64,000 nt of DNA. Origin: Synechococcus sp. WH 5701 (GTDB lineage: Bacteria; Cyanobacteriota; Cyanobacteriia; PCC-6307; Cyanobiaceae). This document shows positions 1-8,208 of the stretch, piece by piece. Every line of letters begins with the position of its first letter. Positions within the stretch are counted from its first letter, which is position 1. The notes under the pieces were generated by a model. The model was not told the origin of the DNA, searched no databases, and saw only the letters and a list, made by a program, of their open reading frames with translations. The position numbers and the translations under genes were made by a program. The stretch is taken from NCBI RefSeq assembly GCF_000153045.1, contig NZ_CH724159.1, positions 662,216-726,215 of the forward strand, given 5' to 3'.

Positions 1-848
1 GCTCCGGCATCTGGCTCGAAACCTGTCCAGTATCGATGCTCTGATCGCCTGCGGTGCAAGAGTTTTGGCGGCTGGTCGCCATTGGTATCGCAAGCTGTTG
101 GTGATCAGTGAGCTGGTGAGGCAGCAAAAGATCCTGTATCACTCAGACACCAGAAGTATTCAGGATCGAATCGTCAGTTTGACACAACCCCACATCAGGC
201 CAATCGTTCGTGGCAAGACTAGAAATAATGTTGAATTTGGTGCCAAGATCTCGATCTCGGTCAGTGGCGATGGATTTGCATTCCTGGATCGTCTCAGCTG
301 GGATCCCTACAACGAAGGAGAAGACCTAAAATCCCAGGTACGCACTTTTCACCGTCGCCATGGCTTTTATCCAAAGGTTGTCTGTGCTGATCAGATCTAT
401 CGCACACGATCCAACCGCGCCTTTTGCATGAGGCATGGAATTCGCTTGAGCGGGCCGCGTCTTGGCAGGCCAAAAAATGATCCTGATCTCGTCGCTGCAG
501 AGAAGAAGATCGCTCTAGATGATCAGAGGCGGCGCAACGGTGTAGAGGGGAAGTTCGGCCAAGGGAAGCGCCGTTTCGGGCTTGGGCTCGTTCGTGAGAA
601 GCTGGCCGAGACCTCAGGTTGCACCATCGCCATAAATCTGTTGGTCATGAACCTCGAGAAGCTCCTGGAGCTTCTTGTTGTATTGATTGCCATACTCCAA
701 GGCTTGCTAATGGCATGTATCGCCTCTGAGAGGCGTCCCACGCTGCTCATTTCATCGGGACTGAGTTTGGCTACATGCTGAGATGATCACGGCGCAGGCA
801 TCTCTGGATCAGAGGCTGGCCCGAGCAATAGCTTTTTCAGGAGGCCCC
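1..848 (+). mobile_element. Right part of an IS5-type insertion sequence (left end outside window)
   Basis: The transposase frame is open to the left edge, so only the 3' part of the element is present. The right end is inferred. Reading inward from 848 on the minus strand there is GGGGCCTCCTGAAAAAGC, which looks like an IS terminal inverted repeat. It lies just where the neighbouring minus-strand gene stops making sense. The left terminal repeat and the target duplication cannot be seen, so the exact end is uncertain. Confidence 0.5.
2..781 (+). CDS. IS5 family (IS1182-like) transposase, 3' part
   Basis: This DDE transposase moves the insertion sequence. The frame runs open from the left edge (LRHLARNLSS...), so the N-terminus and the first catalytic Asp lie outside the window; 259 residues are visible. 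The second catalytic Asp is in VVCADQIYRTRSN and the Glu is probably in NGVEGKFGQGKRRFGLG, both typical of the IS5/IS1182 C-terminal half. The linker YHSDTRSI also fits this family. Codon use is less GC-rich than in the flanking genes, consistent with a mobile element. The gene looks intact within the window, so the element may be functional. Confidence 0.85.
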   Translation, partial: LRHLARNLSSIDALIACGARVLAAGRHWYRKLLVISELVRQQKILYHSDTRSIQDRIVSLTQPHIRPIVRGKTRNNVEFGAKISISVSGDGFAFLDRLSWDPYNEGEDLKSQVRTFHRRHGFYPKVVCADQIYRTRSNRAFCMRHGIRLSGPRLGRPKNDPDLVAAEKKIALDDQRRRNGVEGKFGQGKRRFGLGLVREKLAETSGCTIAINLLVMNLEKLLELLVVLIAILQGLLMACIASERRPTLLISSGLSLATC

Positions 849-1483
849 ACATAGCGGCCGCTGATCTGCAGCGGTGGCCGGCCGATGCTCAGTCGGGTGG
901 AGCCATCCGCCCCCGGCTCCAGCTCCACCTCCTCCAACTGCACGATCAGATCGTCGTTTGGGCGTGCCCCCGCCAGCGATTGCAGCGGTCCCACCCGCAG
1001 GCGCCCATCCAGGCGCCGGGGCAGGAGGTTGCCCTGCCCCTCGATCTCCTGCGCCGCTGCAGCGAAGCGCACATCGGTGCTCACCCGCTCCACCAGCTCC
1101 CGCAGGGCCGGCCGCTGAGCCCACTCCAGGTGCAGCACCTGTCCCTCCAGCCCCTGGGCCGTGGGCGGAGCGTGCTCGATCTCGACCCAGACCCAGTCGC
1201 CGGGCTCCCGGCTGGTTTCAGTGACGCTGGGCAGGATCAGCCGGCCGATCCAGTCGGCGTGTGGCTGGTACAGGCGTGAATCGGGGCGCTGGCTGAGCGG
1301 GTAGTGGCTGGGCCGGTTGAAGGGCGCGGCCTGGGCCAGGGCGTAACTGCTGCCGGGGGCGGGTGCGCCGGCCAGCGCGGGAGCCAGCAGCAACGACACC
1401 GTCAGGGTCAGGAGCAGCAGGAAAGGGAGCAGCCGCCAGGAGCCTCGCCGCTGCCGTGGCCGCTGGGGGGAGGTGGATGTCAT
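809..1483 (-). CDS. Conserved cyanobacterial membrane-anchored protein, probably truncated by the IS
   Basis: I do not recognise a named function. The ATG at 1483 is chosen because it overlaps the TGA of the upstream gene (ATGA), implying translational coupling; 224 residues result. An N-terminal basic stretch and one hydrophobic segment (FLLLLTLTVSLLLAPALA) suggest a signal peptide or anchor. The rest is a soluble module with GDWVWVEIEHAP and RLRVGPLQSLAGARPNDD. From memory, related cyanobacterial proteins continue well beyond this point. Here the last dozen codons fall in the putative IS end at about 809-848, so the native C-terminus is probably lost and the stop codon supplied by the IS. 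Confidence 0.6.
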   Translation of the reverse strand: MTSTSPQRPRQRRGSWRLLPFLLLLTLTVSLLLAPALAGAPAPGSSYALAQAAPFNRPSHYPLSQRPDSRLYQPHADWIGRLILPSVTETSREPGDWVWVEIEHAPPTAQGLEGQVLHLEWAQRPALRELVERVSTDVRFAAAAQEIEGQGNLLPRRLDGRLRVGPLQSLAGARPNDDLIVQLEEVELEPGADGSTRLSIGRPPLQISGRYVGPPEKAIARASL

Positions 1484-2799
1484 GGCGGGGAGGGTGCCAC
1501 CTCCAGCTGGGCGGCGCCGCAGCGGCTGCAATAGGGAAGGTGCCGGTGGGTGGGCTCGTGGCAGTGGACGCACTCGCGGAACTGGGCATAGCCGCAATGC
1601 GGGCAGTGGCGGCCACCGCTGGGGAGCTTGCGGGCGCAGTGCAGACAGCGGCCGCGCTGCACCCGCTCCGCCGCCTGCAGCCTCGGGTTGAACACCAGGG
1701 CCTGCAGCAGCTTGATCAGGGCGAAGCCCACCAGTGGCACCGCCAGCAGGTAGAGGTAGCTCACCAGGAAGCGCAGATTGCCTGCGATGGCCCGCACCAC
1801 CGCCAGCAGCAGCTCGAAGATCAGCCCTATCTGGGCCGCTTCAGCCAGCTTCAGCAGCAGCGGGATCAGGGAAATCACCAGCAGGTGCCAGCTCACCAGC
1901 GCCAGCAGGCCGTGCCCCCTGCGCAGGGCGTGGCGATGGATCAGCAGGCTCAGCAGCACCAGCGGCATCAGGAAGAGGCCCTGCAGCAGCAGGCGCTGGC
2001 TGGGGGCCCAGAACTGGGCCCTCGCGAAGGCCCGCTCCATCGCCTCGTAGCCGCCGCTGCGGTTCAGGAACGTCAGGAAGGACTGGCTCTCGCTGGCCTC
2101 CAGCAGCTGCTGGCTGAGCGTCACCACCTCGGCCCGCAGGGCACCGATGCGGGCGTTGTTGGCTTCGATCCGCCGCCGGGCCTGCGAGGCCGGCACCTCC
2201 TGGATGGCCTTGGAGGCCGGCTGACCGGCGATCTGCTCCAGCAGGCTGGAGTCGTACTGGGAGCGGATCGCGGCGTTGCCCTGCTCCAGGGTGGTGATCT
2301 CGGTTTCGGCCACATCCAGCTCCCTCTGCCGCTGGCGCAGCTCCGGCTGGGCGGCGATGAGGTCCTGATGGCCGGCGAAGTCCAGACAGATGGGCGCAAC
2401 CCGGCCGAGGTGGTCACGGCTGGCCTCGAGGGCCCCGGCGCGGACGCCAGGTTCGGGGGCTGAAGCCTGCGGTTCCCCCGGTGCACGGCGCGGAATGGCC
2501 CGGCGCAGGATCGCCAGGTCCCGCTCCAGCCGGTCGTTGTTGCCCTCCCGGTAGAGGCTCCACTCGGCCTGACAGGGAAAGGCCTGCTGCGGGCTCAGGG
2601 GCCACTCGGCGATGGCGGCCATGCCGCTGAAGATGTTGACCAGCAACACCAGATCGACCAGCACGATCACCAGCAGGCTGGCCTTGTTCAGGGGCTGGCC
2701 GTTCAGGGTTCCCGAGCGCTGCAGCAGCCCCCTGATCTGGCGCCCCAGCCGGCGCCAGGCGTGGGACAGGGGGGCGGTGAACGGGAATCCTTGCGGCAT
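1480..2799 (-). CDS. Membrane protein with C-terminal double zinc ribbon
   Basis: Protein of 439 residues with no recognised function. An N-terminal membrane segment (LLVIVLVDLVLLVNIFSGMAA) is followed by a charged, helical, coiled-coil-like middle (about 75-225). Two or three further hydrophobic segments follow (LLLQGLFLMPLVLLSLLI; LLVISLIPLLLKLAEA). The last 60 residues carry four CxxC pairs (CLHCA, CPHCG, CVHCH, CSRCG), a classic double zinc ribbon that should face the cytoplasm. It lies 10 bp after the retropepsin gene stop and overlaps the next gene by ATGA, so it belongs to a five-gene operon. A role in a membrane complex is inference only. Confidence 0.8.
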   Translation of the reverse strand: MPQGFPFTAPLSHAWRRLGRQIRGLLQRSGTLNGQPLNKASLLVIVLVDLVLLVNIFSGMAAIAEWPLSPQQAFPCQAEWSLYREGNNDRLERDLAILRRAIPRRAPGEPQASAPEPGVRAGALEASRDHLGRVAPICLDFAGHQDLIAAQPELRQRQRELDVAETEITTLEQGNAAIRSQYDSSLLEQIAGQPASKAIQEVPASQARRRIEANNARIGALRAEVVTLSQQLLEASESQSFLTFLNRSGGYEAMERAFARAQFWAPSQRLLLQGLFLMPLVLLSLLIHRHALRRGHGLLALVSWHLLVISLIPLLLKLAEAAQIGLIFELLLAVVRAIAGNLRFLVSYLYLLAVPLVGFALIKLLQALVFNPRLQAAERVQRGRCLHCARKLPSGGRHCPHCGYAQFRECVHCHEPTHRHLPYCSRCGAAQLEVAPSPP

Positions 2800-2809
2800 C
2801 GGCGCTGCC

Positions 2810-3811
2810 CTAGGGCCAGAGGCTCAGCGTCGCAGGCACCGCGTCCAGTCGCCAGAGCTGGGCCCGACGGCGCAACAGCTCCTGCCCCACGATCGCCTCC
2901 ACCCGCAGGCTCGCGAAGATTGGGTTGGCGGTCACGATGGCCTCGACAGGCTGGCCTGGATCGCCTCCTGGCAGCGCCAGGCCCGAGAGGGGCTGGCGGC
3001 GGGCCCTCTGCTCGCCGCAGAACCCCGCGAGCCGCAGAGCCCTGGCTGCTGCCAGCGGCTGCAGCCGAGCCGCCAGGGCCGTCGTGATGAACAGCCCTTC
3101 GGCGCCAGTGTCGGCCAGGGCGAGGGCCGAGCCCGCCGGTGTGCCCAGGGGCAGCAGCGGCACCCCTTGGCGCCAGACCAGCGGCAGGGTGGTGACGTCC
3201 CCGGCATGGTCTCCCCGTCGAAATCGCTCGGCATCGGCGAGGGCCAGCGGTCCCAGGCTCAGGCGCTGGCCGTGGGGGTCGATCCAGAGCGGCTGCTGGC
3301 GCAGCTGCGGGGCCCCCAGAACACCGTCGACCCCCGGGGGCAATCCAGCCACCGGCAGCACCAGCGCCTCCATGCCGCTGAGCTGGAGCCGTTCACCATC
3401 AGAGGCGATCACCAGTTCGGGCAGTTTCACCCGCTGGGGCTTGAGGTCTGGACAGGCCTCACCGGCACCGGCGAGCGCGAAGGTCTTCGGATCCACGAGC
3501 TGGCTCTCGAGGTTCAACCGGCGCACCAGCTCGGGGCTCACCAGGGTGGTGGAGGCCCCGGTGTCGAGCATCAACCGCACCATGCCGCCGCCGCTCTGGA
3601 GGCTGAGCACGGGGGTGTCACCGCCGCTGGCCCGTTCGAGGGGGATGTTCACCTGGCCGCTGCTGCGCCCAGACGCCAGGGGCGGTCCCCCAAGCTGAAT
3701 CAGGGCCGCTGTTGTGGTGGTCTCTATGGAGCCTGGGGAGGCCCCTGCGGGCTGCACGCCAACGAGCCCCAGAGCAAGCCCCAGCCCCAGCGCCGCAGCC
3801 CTGCTGATCAT
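2810..3811 (-). CDS. Secreted retropepsin-like aspartic protease
   Basis: The ATG at 3811 overlaps the TGA of the upstream META gene (ATGA) and begins a clear signal peptide (ISRAAALGLGLALGLVGVQPAGA), giving 333 residues. The sequence has two aspartyl-protease half motifs, LMLDTGASTTLV and ALADTGAEGLFI, as in single-chain, two-lobed retropepsin-like proteins of bacteria. Both catalytic Asp residues are present, so activity is plausible. The substrate is unknown; export suggests the periplasm. It sits in the middle of a tight operon with a META-domain protein and a zinc-ribbon membrane protein. Confidence 0.82.
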   Translation of the reverse strand: MISRAAALGLGLALGLVGVQPAGASPGSIETTTTAALIQLGGPPLASGRSSGQVNIPLERASGGDTPVLSLQSGGGMVRLMLDTGASTTLVSPELVRRLNLESQLVDPKTFALAGAGEACPDLKPQRVKLPELVIASDGERLQLSGMEALVLPVAGLPPGVDGVLGAPQLRQQPLWIDPHGQRLSLGPLALADAERFRRGDHAGDVTTLPLVWRQGVPLLPLGTPAGSALALADTGAEGLFITTALAARLQPLAAARALRLAGFCGEQRARRQPLSGLALPGGDPGQPVEAIVTANPIFASLRVEAIVGQELLRRRAQLWRLDAVPATLSLWP

Positions 3812-4635
3812 CTGCCGTCGGCGCGGCGAAGGATGACCGCCAGGGCCCCATCGGGCCGCCGCAGCTCCAGACGATTCGCCTCGATCTGCCATGTGCTGGC
3901 AGATTCAAGGGCGCTCAGAAACTGGATCTCCTGCTCCATCACTCCCCGGGGCCGCACGCAGATCCTGCGGGTTGCCGCCGGCGGCCCCACCTGGATCGTT
4001 CCCTGGCCGAGCACCGCCGTTGCGGTGTAGCGGTTGCATCCAGCCGTTCCCGCCAGACGCCCGCGCGCGCTGAGCTCCAGGCTGAGGGTGGTCCCCGTCA
4101 GGGTGCTCACCACCGCCTGCTTGCCGTTGTTGAGCCCGGTGACGATCCAGAGGGCGCCGGCGATCTCCTGGGGCTGGGGCCGGAAGCGGACCACTGGAGT
4201 GCCATTGGCGGCCATCAGCTCCAGCTGGCCGTTTCGGAGGTTGTAGCCCCTGGCCGCCGTGAGGGCTGCCCTGAAGGCCTGGGCCTGACGCATCTGCTTT
4301 TCGGGGCAGGCCATCTGGGTGGAGGGGCCCTGTTCGCTCACCCGGAAGAGGGAGCCCCTTACCTGCACGGAAGCGGAATAGCGGTTGCAGCCGTCGCTGC
4401 CACTGATGCGGCCCTTCTCCAGGCGCAGGGTCGGAGCTGGGGTCACCAACGTTCTCTGTCCCGGGATCGACTCCAGCAGCCAGGCACTCCCCTCCAGGGG
4501 CGATGGTCGCGGCAGCTCGGAGGCTGGCTCACCCGCTTGCCTGGTCTCGGCCGGCAGCGGGCTGACCGTGATCGCCAGCAGGGCCCCCAGGGCAAGACCG
4601 AGTGAAGCCCCTGCCCCTGCGCTGCGTCTTGTCAC
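3808..4635 (-). CDS. Exported protein with two META (HslJ-like) domains
   Basis: I use the GTG at 4635, which follows the EamA stop by one base and starts a good signal peptide (TRRSAGAGASLGLALGALLA). A GTG at 4659 would overlap EamA by 23 bases. The product of 275 residues has two repeats of the META/HslJ fold: SGSDGCNRYSASV with a later QMACPE, and AGTAGCNRYTATA with a later RRICVRP. The GCNRY plus Cys pattern is diagnostic of the family, and HslJ-type proteins are cell-envelope proteins linked to stress tolerance. The biochemical role is unknown. It is co-transcribed with the retropepsin-like protease. Confidence 0.82.
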   Translation of the reverse strand: MTRRSAGAGASLGLALGALLAITVSPLPAETRQAGEPASELPRPSPLEGSAWLLESIPGQRTLVTPAPTLRLEKGRISGSDGCNRYSASVQVRGSLFRVSEQGPSTQMACPEKQMRQAQAFRAALTAARGYNLRNGQLELMAANGTPVVRFRPQPQEIAGALWIVTGLNNGKQAVVSTLTGTTLSLELSARGRLAGTAGCNRYTATAVLGQGTIQVGPPAATRRICVRPRGVMEQEIQFLSALESASTWQIEANRLELRRPDGALAVILRRADGR

Positions 4636-4636
4636 G

Positions 4637-5584
4637 TCAAGCCCTGTCAACCGTGGCACCCATCCTGGTGCCCAGCAGCACCAGCAGCAGCCCGATGACC
4701 GTGATGGGGTGGATGGCCTCCCCCAGCACCAGGGCTGCGCTGATCACGGCCACCACGATCGTCAGCGATCCCCACAACGACACCTGGGCCACACTCCAGT
4801 GGCGGTAGGCCTGGCGCAGGGCCAGTTCACTGCCCAGGGACAGCCCGAGTCCATAGATCACGATCACTCCCACCACCCACGCGGCGTTGAGCAGGTGGAA
4901 ATGGGAGGGTCCGAACAGGATCAGGGCCAGGGCGCCGAACACCAGGGCTGAGACCGTGGTGGTGAGCCCCACCGTGAGGGCCGCCGGCCAGCCGCGCTGG
5001 GCGATGGCACGGCCGCTCACCCCGGCCCCCGCGAAGGCGACCACCCCCACCAGCGCCCAGACCACCCCCAGCAGTTCATCCATCGGTCCGCCCATGCCGG
5101 CCATTGCCAGCTGGGGAAGCAGCAGCCCGAGCACGATCAGCCCGAAGCTCAGCCAGAACCCCCGCGGCAGCGTTTCCCCCAGCAGGCGCCTGGCCAGCAG
5201 TGCCGACAGCGGCAGCACCAAGGCGAACAGCAGGGTCTGGCTGATCACCGAAAGGGACTCCAGGGCAAAGTAGAAGGCCACGGGTCCCAGGAACAGCCCG
5301 AGCACCGTGTCCAGCGCCAGCAGACGGCGATCGCGCCCCTCCAGCTTGGCCAGTACCTGCGGCAGCTGGGCCCGTCCGGGCAGCAACACCGTGAGGCCCA
5401 CGATCAGCTGGGCCACGAAGAAGACGTTGCAGAAGCTGATCGGGTTCTCGCCGCCGATCGGGTGAGTCGCCCCGAAGGCCTGCAGCCCTTTCAAGGCGGT
5501 GGCGTTGAGCCCCTTGAGCACCACGTAAAGCAGCAGCGGTAACCAGGCCATGGTTGAGCGCTTCGCTTGGATCGGCTGGCGCAT
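4637..5584 (-). CDS. EamA/DMT-superfamily transporter
   Basis: Inner-membrane protein of 315 residues with about ten hydrophobic helices in two repeated EamA halves (for example VLGLFLGPVAFYFALESL and PITVIGLLLVLLGTRMG at the end). Such proteins export or import small metabolites; no substrate can be read from the sequence. It is the first gene of a five-gene minus-strand operon. An internal ATG at 5551 (MAWLPLLLYV) is an alternative start that lies nearer the first helix. Confidence 0.85.
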   Translation of the reverse strand: MRQPIQAKRSTMAWLPLLLYVVLKGLNATALKGLQAFGATHPIGGENPISFCNVFFVAQLIVGLTVLLPGRAQLPQVLAKLEGRDRRLLALDTVLGLFLGPVAFYFALESLSVISQTLLFALVLPLSALLARRLLGETLPRGFWLSFGLIVLGLLLPQLAMAGMGGPMDELLGVVWALVGVVAFAGAGVSGRAIAQRGWPAALTVGLTTTVSALVFGALALILFGPSHFHLLNAAWVVGVIVIYGLGLSLGSELALRQAYRHWSVAQVSLWGSLTIVVAVISAALVLGEAIHPITVIGLLLVLLGTRMGATVDRA

Positions 5585-5610: not shown

Positions 5611-6516
5611 TCAGAAAAAGAATTTCACCCCCATCTCCACTCCATTCTGGTTGATGTCATAGGCATTCTCCGGGGATTGATCGTTGGTGCCTCCCAGATG
5701 CAGGTAGCGCCAGGAGAGATTGAGCTGGGTGTTGTTGCCCACCGCATAACCAACCCCTACCTGGGCATTGGCTGAATAGTCGTCGGAGTTGTTGACGCCG
5801 AAGCCGCCGAGATCACCGCGGGCGAACAGGCGCAAGCGTGGCGAGAGAAACACGCTGGCCTGGGTTCCCAGCAATGGCTGGGTCACGGTGCCGCCGAAGC
5901 TCCTGGAGCGGGAGAGGCTCAGATTCGGTCCGTCGAACTGGGCACTCAGGTCGTAGCGCATGTCGACGAAACGCACGCCGGCATAGGGGATCACGCTGAA
6001 GCTGCCGCCCTTGGCGATGGCCTGTTCCCTGTCACCGAAGCGATAGCGAAGGGCCACGTCATAGATCCCCTGGATGTTGTTGAGCGTCGCGCTCAGTTTC
6101 CTCCTCCCTAAGGGGGATGTGGTGGCGTCCTCCCCGCGCACCGACACGTAACTCAGGTCGGTGAGCAGCCCCAGCCGCTTGTACTCGACGCTGCCGCGCA
6201 CATAGGCCGCCATGGTCAGCGGGCGCAGCACCTGCTCGAGATCGAGGTCCACATCGGCGGTCAGCCCCTTGACGGTGGTGCTGCCGGTGGTGCGAAGAGG
6301 GAAAAAACCGTAGATCTCCGCTGTGGCGCTCCAGGGAGAGGGGGCCTCGGCGGTCTCTTTCCCTTCTGTGCTGGAAGGCCCCTCTTCCGCGTTGCCGGTG
6401 GTCTCCTCCTCGGCAAGGGCGATTCCAGGGCCGATCAGGGGCTGGATCAGGGCGATTCCAAGCAGGAGCAAGGCCTGATGCCGCAACGACACCCAACCGC
6501 GATCAGGGCGAAACAT
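5611..6516 (-). CDS. Outer-membrane beta-barrel protein
   Basis: Protein of 301 residues. An N-terminal signal peptide (LLLLGIALIQPLIGPGIALA) is followed by an acidic, low-complexity linker (about 36-60). A long run of alternating polar and aromatic strands then ends in GVEMGVKFFF. The C-terminal Phe and the strand pattern (TQLNLSWRYLHLGG, VGVGYAVGNN) fit an OmpA/OprD-like eight-stranded barrel inserted by BamA. Function is not identifiable; pore or structural roles are possible. It lies 26 bp from the EamA operon start and may be expressed separately or with it. Confidence 0.75.
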   Translation of the reverse strand: MFRPDRGWVSLRHQALLLLGIALIQPLIGPGIALAEEETTGNAEEGPSSTEGKETAEAPSPWSATAEIYGFFPLRTTGSTTVKGLTADVDLDLEQVLRPLTMAAYVRGSVEYKRLGLLTDLSYVSVRGEDATTSPLGRRKLSATLNNIQGIYDVALRYRFGDREQAIAKGGSFSVIPYAGVRFVDMRYDLSAQFDGPNLSLSRSRSFGGTVTQPLLGTQASVFLSPRLRLFARGDLGGFGVNNSDDYSANAQVGVGYAVGNNTQLNLSWRYLHLGGTNDQSPENAYDINQNGVEMGVKFFF

Positions 6517-6572: not shown

Positions 6573-7235
6573 TCAGGCCGATTGTCGTCCCATGATCTCC
6601 AGATAGCGATCCTCGAGTTCCCTCACCAGCAGCTGCTCGAGGCCAGCCTGACGCAGTTGCTCCTCCACCTCCGGGGCCGTGAAGGCGGCCTGCAGGGACT
6701 GGCGGTAGTCGTGCTGGAGCACGGCTGGGGCCCCGGCCGCATGGGTGGTCACCAGTCGCTCAAGGGCGGTCTGATTGGCGGGACGACGCAGATCCTTGAT
6801 GTAGATCGCGGCCCCGGGGGCCGCCAGCTGGTGCACCGTGCTCCAGAGAGCCTGGGGATCGTGGAGATGATGCAAAAGGCTGTTGCTCACCACGGCGTCA
6901 TAGCCCCCCTGCAGCCGAGATGAGGGGAGCAGGGCCTGCTCGAAGCTCACGGATCCGCAGGGCAGGGAACCCTGCTGTGGCTGATGCTGGCGTTTCTGAT
7001 CCAGGCGGGCGATGGCGATGGCCAGCATCGCGCCGGAGCCATCCACCCCCACCACCTGGCTGGAGGGGTAGCGGCTCGCCAGGCGAAAGGTGATGTTGCC
7101 GGGGCCGCAGCCCAGATCGACGATCCGCTCCCCCAGCTGAGAGCCGAAACAGACGGCGATGCGCTCCACCATGGCCTGGTCGGTGGCACTGAAATCGGCC
7201 TCGGCGTAGGCCCGGGCCTGCTCGACCCCATCCAT
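6573..7235 (-). CDS. Class I SAM-dependent methyltransferase
   Basis: Protein of 220 residues with a Rossmann methyltransferase core. Motif I is VDLGCGPGNITFRLA, followed by the acidic strand VVGVDGSGAML, then YDAVVSNSLLHHLHD and GAAIYIKDLRRP. This pattern matches the Methyltransf_11/25 group. The acceptor substrate cannot be predicted. It lies between the outer-membrane barrel and the RodZ-like gene on the same strand. Confidence 0.85.
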   Translation of the reverse strand: MDGVEQARAYAEADFSATDQAMVERIAVCFGSQLGERIVDLGCGPGNITFRLASRYPSSQVVGVDGSGAMLAIAIARLDQKRQHQPQQGSLPCGSVSFEQALLPSSRLQGGYDAVVSNSLLHHLHDPQALWSTVHQLAAPGAAIYIKDLRRPANQTALERLVTTHAAGAPAVLQHDYRQSLQAAFTAPEVEEQLRQAGLEQLLVRELEDRYLEIMGRQSA

Positions 7236-7305: not shown

Positions 7306-8208
7306 TCAGCGGCTGGAGCTGCTCGTGGGAGGTTGGCGCTCTCCGCTGCTGGAGAACCGCTGCCAGCTGATCTGCTCGATCGTGCCCAGGGTCTGGGACT
7401 CGCCTGAGGCTGTGGTCACTGTGATCAGATCCGGGCGGCCCGCCATCACCTCAAGCCCTGCCCCCAGGGAAAAGTTGCCGGTGCCGGTGAACAGGCCCCG
7501 GAACAGTTCCTTGCCCTCGCCATTGCGCACTTCCAGCCAACTGGGTTCCCGGCTGCTGAGCTGAAGGCTCCCCTGACTGGGCTTGCCGGTATTGGCTGGC
7601 TCGCTTGTTTGGCTGGCAGGGCTGATGGCTTCGCTGGCCTCGGCGCCCACGGGTGGGCTCGTCAGGTTGCTGGCGGCGGGTTGGCTGGGCTTCCAGCCGA
7701 AGGCCAGGCCGGCCACCAGGGCCAGCACACCGGCACCGCCTGCCAGCAGCCAGGTCATCCCGACCTGTCGGCGCTTTCGGGTTGGCTGAAGCTGGGCGGC
7801 GCTGCTGGGGTCCCGGGGGGCCATGGCAGGAGCCGCCAGGCTCACCCTGGCCACGGGAGCCGCGGTGGGTGCGGCTGTGCGTTTCACTCCAGGCAGGTGG
7901 ATGTCCAGCAGGGGCTCGGTCAGCTGGTCGGCGTCAAGGCCGAGGCTGGTGGCCACCCGTCTGGCCTGGGCGATCAGGTAGATCCGCTCGGGCAGCCGCG
8001 TGTGGTCGCCTGATTCCAGGGCTTCGAGCCGGTCAGCGGAGAGATAGTTCTGCTCCGCCAGCACGGCCAGCGGGATGCCCTGGGCCTCACGGGCTTCAGC
8101 GAGCGCCCGGCCCAGGCTCACCAGGATGGGTAGCCGCTCACAGGCGGAGGAGTCGGCTTTGGCTGCCGAGTCTCCGGGCTCCGCTGGGTGGGACGCGCGC
8201 TCGCTCAC
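7306..8208 (-). CDS. RodZ-like helix-turn-helix membrane protein
   Basis: Protein of 300 residues with a GTG start. Residues about 30-100 form an HTH_25/XRE-like domain (GRALAEAREAQGIPLAVLAEQNYLS). A Pro/Ala-rich linker follows, then a transmembrane helix at about 150-170 (WLLAGGAGVLALVAGLAFGW), and a C-terminal DUF4115-type domain (SWLEVRNGEGKELFRG, LITVTTASG). This order is that of RodZ, which links MreB to the elongation machinery. Cyanobacterial members are diverged and some are annotated only as HTH proteins. Nearby murI and amiC support a cell-wall context. Confidence 0.8.
   Translation of the reverse strand: MSERASHPAEPGDSAAKADSSACERLPILVSLGRALAEAREAQGIPLAVLAEQNYLSADRLEALESGDHTRLPERIYLIAQARRVATSLGLDADQLTEPLLDIHLPGVKRTAAPTAAPVARVSLAAPAMAPRDPSSAAQLQPTRKRRQVGMTWLLAGGAGVLALVAGLAFGWKPSQPAASNLTSPPVGAEASEAISPASQTSEPANTGKPSQGSLQLSSREPSWLEVRNGEGKELFRGLFTGTGNFSLGAGLEVMAGRPDLITVTTASGESQTLGTIEQISWQRFSSSGERQPPTSSSSR

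Follow-up and report, generated by a model that had tools for sequence, protein, structure and literature searches.

The window analysed here, a stretch of 64,000 nucleotides from Synechococcus sp. WH 5701 (C9:662216-726215, contig NZ_CH724159.1, in a 3.28-Mb genome), has near its start a run of genes on the minus strand. A sequence-only reading had described this end as a tight five-gene envelope operon, and the positions of its five open reading frames (ORFs) and the lengths of their junctions were confirmed. Along the minus strand the order is EamA, META, PRO, ZNR and a last ORF: the GTG start of META lies 1 bp past the EamA stop, META and PRO overlap by 4 nt in an ATGA, PRO and ZNR are separated by 10 bp, and ZNR overlaps the last ORF through another 4-nt ATGA. 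The family calls made for EamA, the double META protein, the two-stretch Asp_protease_2 and the double zinc ribbon (DZR) were likewise supported by Pfam, DZR just under its cut-off. The extent given for the operon did not stand, as the same-strand run is longer than five genes and also takes in the OMP, MT and RodZ-like genes upstream. The features of the locus are the following:

1..845, plus strand: part of an IS5-family element (transposase ORF 65-781), which interrupts the CPBP gene and extends to the left of the window
809..1483, minus strand: CPBP 5′ fragment, with the N-terminal hydrophobic/signal segment and the first extracytoplasmic part only
1480..2799, minus strand: ZNR, predicted membrane protein with a C-terminal 8-Cys double zinc ribbon (DZR, E 2.7e-5, below cut-off)
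2810..3811, minus strand: PRO, predicted exported bilobal aspartic peptidase (Asp_protease_2, two stretches, E 3.2e-13)
3808..4635, minus strand: META, exported, with two META (HslJ-like) domains (PF03724, 2 stretches, E 3e-48)
4637..5584, minus strand: EamA, DMT-type transporter (PF00892, two stretches, E 3.7e-15)
5611..6516, minus strand: OMP, predicted outer-membrane beta-barrel (OMP_b-brl, E 1.1e-4, below cut-off)
6573..7235, minus strand: MT, class I SAM methyltransferase (PF08242, E 3.1e-18)
7306..8208, minus strand: RodZ-like HTH membrane protein (HTH_25, E 9.3e-13; RodZ_C, 20.9 bits, cut-off 23.9)

The start of EamA is more likely at 5551, because the part upstream of it is not open in the congener G004 and in G008 the later ATG is the sole one present. 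A promoter and terminator scan of the locus detected neither a sigma-70-like promoter nor a terminator above chance, and was uninformative.

The last ORF of the array, previously taken for an anchored soluble protein, turned out to be the 5′ fragment of a long gene for a CPBP membrane protease that has been split by the IS5-family element. It holds about 213 codons of a gene of ~820 aa, followed by 12 IS-derived codons at its end, and matched no Pfam family; the CPBP domain is absent from the ORF and sits beyond the element. Its homologues lie in open frames of 853-1070 aa in the congeners and mostly of 820-1280 aa in almost all other genomes that have a match, and the gene is uninterrupted in all eight other congeners. 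The homology ends at residue ~213, exactly where the element starts. This element (L002:9143-10845, ~1.7 kb) covers window positions 1-845 and beyond, matches the NCBIfam profile transpos_IS5_1 (E 8.6e-50) and DDE_Tnp_1_2 (E 4.6e-28), and is bordered at both junctions with CPBP by the 8-bp direct repeat TATGTGGG. Behind it, outside the window, the other 600 CPBP codons continue free of stops at L002:7340-9142 (C9:659555-661357); they are 89% identical to those of G004 and contain an Rce1-like (PF02517) match of 43.3 bits (cut-off 22.4). A run of 47 N within the IS copy, just to the left of the window, makes the join between CPBP and the element dependent on the assembly, and the join is supported by the matching direct repeats and by the open frames on either side. 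The anatomy of the array and the break in the CPBP gene are as good as certain. Because 11 near-identical copies of the element are present in the genome (on C9 and C8), the insertion is probably recent. With its CPBP gene split, the pair formed by PRO and CPBP is probably inactive in this strain; the frames of PRO, META, EamA and ZNR are still open. The possibility that the ORF encodes a genuine short secreted protein was considered and rejected, given the length of the homologues and the presence of the rest of the gene.

Intact homologues of CPBP end in an Rce1-like domain (E 4e-10 to 2e-11), with PF02517 scores of 40.4 and 44.4 bits against a gathering cut-off of 22.4, and the match was found in all 50 family members aligned. 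The catalytic motifs of CPBP proteases (EExxxR, FxxxH, H) are kept, with E719, R723 and H802 in 50/50 members and H754 in 48/50; in the extracytoplasmic part, H372, H393 and C505 are invariant (50/50). A model of the full protein from a congener (L086, pLDDT 85.5) displays a signal/anchor helix, a beta-rich region (78-340), a mixed region (363-628) and a membrane domain (664-817). Comparison of the model with solved Rce1 structures did not recover the CPBP domain, and a profile search of PDB sequences with the family gave no match. On these sequence grounds, CPBP is predicted to be an integral membrane protein whose large extracytoplasmic part precedes an intramembrane glutamic protease domain of the Rce1 type at the C-terminus. 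It shares the C-terminal membrane domain and the EExxFR, FxxYH and H motifs with the known CPBP proteases, which include a cyanobacterial/plastid clade (PMC7542359), and differs from them in that the domain follows ~640 extracytoplasmic residues that carry the invariant His, His and Cys and that Pfam does not cover.

PRO contains the motifs D83-T-G and D234-T-G, both of which are present in full-length homologues, and the two aspartates are invariant in the alignment. Its model (pLDDT 82) adopts a pepsin-like two-lobed fold whose best structural match is 9iy9, a putative endopeptidase of Bacteroides fragilis (Z 20.3, 258 aa, rmsd 3.4), followed by fungal pepsins with Z about 15 across both lobes. 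The model thus portrays PRO as a predicted exported, single-chain, bilobal aspartic endopeptidase. The likeness to 9iy9 extends to the two lobes, the two DTG aspartates and export; the two proteins share 13-14% identity, and the PRO gene lies in a cyanobacterial operon together with a CPBP protease. In the rlo operon of Pseudomonas aeruginosa, the secreted retropepsin-like protein RloA is encoded with the membrane protein RloB and with RloC (PMC12239564), so that in both cases a secreted aspartic protease accompanies a membrane protein of the envelope. However, RloA is homologous to RimB, and RloB is an inactive transglutaminase, whereas PRO is bilobal and its partner is a CPBP protease. PRO matches Asp_protease_2, its neighbours are EamA, META, ZNR and CPBP, and no ATP-grasp gene was seen at the locus. 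The rlo operon, in which the secreted enzyme works together with proteins from its own operon, serves as a functional analogy for how the PRO pair could act and not as a family match.

Of the other products, META shares the META domain with HslJ/META proteins (PF03724), has two copies of it, and scored 32.9 bits with the HslJ equivalog, below the cut-off of 168. ZNR reached 24.7 bits with DZR (PF12773), for which the cut-off is 27.3, and the domain was matched by 16/16 members of the ZNR family. Like DZR membrane proteins, ZNR has a C-terminal eight-cysteine ribbon, and it differs from them in its score below the cut-off and in a remainder that no Pfam family model describes. Its alignment includes invariant cysteines in the presumed outer part, with the eight-cysteine ribbon at the C-terminus, and a coiled-coil-like extracytoplasmic region is predicted from a topology drawn by eye from charge and hydrophobicity. 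Profile searches of PDB sequences with ZNR returned only weak coiled-coil or ribbon matches. As an observation in its own right, ZNR defines an unannotated family of cyanobacterial membrane proteins of about 420 aa with a conserved QYDSTLLE region and the eight-Cys ribbon.

The packing of the array is conserved within the genus, for which the named congeners are Synechococcus/Cyanobium strains J7-Johnson, 1G10, RedBA-s, BSA11S, Cruz-7E5, CS-1329 and CZS48M. The 4-nt overlap between META and PRO was found in 9/9 genomes, and the 10-bp gap between PRO and ZNR and the 4-nt overlap between ZNR and CPBP in all seven that have ZNR. The +1 spacing between EamA and META, with an ATG or GTG start, was kept in five. 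Because the same spacings recur across congeners, these junctions are not due to chance. MT occupies the same place in 9/9 genomes. For those pairs of congeners that were compared, dN/dS was about 0.1-0.55, which indicates purifying selection on the genes. Five of the nine genomes have the complete set, EamA included; this strain is one of them, with its fifth gene broken, and a sixth genome has a decayed EamA. OMP and EamA are present or absent together, and both are lacking at the locus in G001-G003. In G005 (L040), OMP and EamA are decaying, with a split OMP and a 172-aa EamA remnant, next to intact META, PRO, ZNR and CPBP. In G001 and G003 ZNR is missing, and the first ZNR codons are fused to the N-terminus of CPBP after PRO. 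This junction is better read as a deletion scar, an insertion in the opposite direction being a possible alternative, because ZNR is found in 7/9 congeners and, in a tree of the five flanking proteins, G002, which has ZNR, sits next to G001, which does not. The pattern of loss would need recombination or two losses, and the same position of G002 beside G001 points to recombination, or to repeated loss, in the history of the locus.

Outside the genus the picture is different, and only PRO and CPBP are found linked. Neither EamA nor META nor ZNR is linked to PRO there, with two exceptions for EamA: a homologue lies 0.4 kb from a truncated PRO in G031, and another 2.8 kb away on the opposite strand in G032. 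In nearly all these cases META and EamA homologues occur elsewhere in the genome. ZNR was not found in any other genus of the family tested, by profile search included; in the genomes of twelve distant cyanobacteria (L022-L033) it stands by itself, and no conserved neighbourhood was found there. By contrast, PRO and CPBP lie side by side in G055/L093, G058/L112, L107 and L116 and 1.5 kb apart in L092, so that linkage concerns a minority, 5 of about 50, of the CPBP loci outside the genus; in G055 and G058, which belong to other genera, they overlap by 4 nt with ZNR absent, and in L107 a rhomboid gene, PRO and CPBP are joined by 4-nt overlaps at both junctions. In Synechococcus sp. SynAce01 (L116:9420-9884), the PRO upstream of CPBP is reduced to a fragment of the second lobe. 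Both genes are present and unlinked in G031, G061, G086 and G076. The association between their presence and absence (Fisher p 4e-4) is confounded by small marine genomes that lack everything and was not relied on. At 15 other loci of Cyanobium type CPBP directly follows a rhomboid gene; these loci come largely from one clade with wide shared synteny, so that the linkage may reflect ancestry. A literature search on rhomboid-CPBP operons found nothing relevant in the collection of papers covered.

When all these loci are compared, the array very probably represents an interval of variable gene content, bounded by conserved anchors on both sides: the RodZ-like gene upstream, and CPBP, a small gene and a prohibitin (SPFH, Band_7) gene downstream. 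In this genus the interval would have turned into an operon of overlapping genes that all point the same way. Between the RodZ-like gene and CPBP there may be nothing (L095), a small ORF and PRO (L093), or, in increasing order, MT-META-PRO, MT-META-PRO-ZNR or MT-OMP-EamA-META-PRO-ZNR. The RodZ-like gene is linked to PRO or CPBP in L092, L093, L095 and L097. In 12 of the loci examined the SPFH gene lies downstream of CPBP, and in most of the 15 mentioned above it lies upstream of the rhomboid gene.

The explanation that best accounts for the locus as a whole, to which we give a probability of roughly one half, is a variable locus with an older protease core formed by PRO and CPBP, later additions and a CPBP gene split by an IS element in this strain. 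According to this proposal, PRO would act outside the membrane, cutting or trimming exported or membrane proteins, and CPBP would then cut inside it, the two acting in succession in the turnover of envelope proteins. ZNR, META, EamA and OMP would be lineage-specific additions, passengers or accessories that share the transcript, and the recent insertion would have broken the pair in this strain. The repeated linkage of PRO and CPBP, the conserved catalytic residues and the exported or membrane-bound appearance of both proteins are consistent with such a pair. That the two proteases do work jointly in envelope proteolysis is a tentative suggestion, held with less confidence than the reading of the locus as a whole. 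Against it stand the small share of CPBP loci outside the genus in which the two genes are linked and the several genomes that carry both of them apart. Within the genus, META might not be a mere passenger, given its overlap with PRO in every genome. A bolder version, in which PRO, CPBP and the rhomboid of some relatives constitute a so far undescribed pathway for proteolysis at the envelope of freshwater picocyanobacteria, with a CPBP protein of two active sites (an extracytoplasmic Cys/His hydrolase and an intramembrane glutamic protease) that works together with an exported pepsin-like enzyme, is unlikely on present evidence.

Other explanations have to be weighed against this one. The genes could be transcribed together without working together. 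In that case the stretch from the RodZ-like gene to CPBP would simply tolerate insertions, with genes coming and going and ending up in positions where their translation is coupled, and PRO and CPBP would have unrelated jobs. The variable contents of the interval within one genus and in related genera and the solitary occurrence of ZNR elsewhere agree with this possibility, as does the RodZ-like gene, which is 98% identical between this strain (G000) and G007 (L042) whereas its neighbours are 78-85% identical, a difference that suggests recent homologous recombination. However, PRO and CPBP overlap in several genera, in one case with a rhomboid gene joined by overlaps as well, and the overlap of META and PRO is kept throughout the genus. 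This explanation is considered less likely than the one preferred here. A dedicated five-gene module for envelope quality control, as the sequence-only reading had proposed, is very improbable: the tight junctions conserved within the genus speak for it, but ZNR, EamA and META are unlinked or absent elsewhere, ZNR is missing in two congeners and EamA-OMP in three (and decayed in one), and the fifth gene is broken in this very strain. Gene order thus largely refutes the module, while the conserved packing is real within one genus; what survives of the proposal, in altered form, is the idea of envelope proteolysis, in which PRO neighbours a membrane protease, the product of the misread fifth gene, and often has a rhomboid or prohibitin gene close by.

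A third possibility is a role in peptidoglycan or cell shape, in which the middle domain of CPBP would be a permuted NlpC/P60-like hydrolase and the locus would serve wall growth, under proteolytic control by PRO and the CPBP domain. Residues 363-628 of the model matched TseH (6v98), an NlpC/P60 peptidase (PMC12663445), weakly (VIA Z 5.3, 149 residues aligned), and the invariant H372, H393 and C505, the RodZ-like gene and MurI-like and Sds-like ORFs upstream (the latter two named by eye only) point in the same direction. Nevertheless, a Z of 5.3 is a value that unrelated folds can also reach, Foldseek returned nothing at E<=0.001 with the whole CPBP model, and Pfam NlpC/P60 gave no match among the 50 members even at E 10. 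A wall role is improbable, and the resemblance of the extracytoplasmic part to NlpC/P60, weakly indicated by the model, is to be taken as a lead and not as an assignment.

Returning to the protease pair in a variable locus, which would be the durable finding, the analysis corrects a tempting call of a new module: of its parts, one is a gene disrupted by a mobile element, and two or three more are recent, dispensable neighbours. The natural gains and losses and the IS knock-out in near relatives provide ready-made comparisons. What remains is a CPBP protein that is widespread in cyanobacteria, has an extracytoplasmic domain lacking annotation and is encoded time and again next to other proteases and an SPFH protein. 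A second group of proteins with the CPBP N-terminal domain was seen in distant cyanobacteria (G083, G095, G098, G109 and G117), in frames of about 1,220-1,300 aa and sometimes several per genome. Finally, in the genus and its neighbours, this strain included, CPBP is followed by the SPFH gene and by the small gene that lies between the two, which encodes a conserved protein of 131 aa with no Pfam family (L086:12424-12819; L002:6979-7350).
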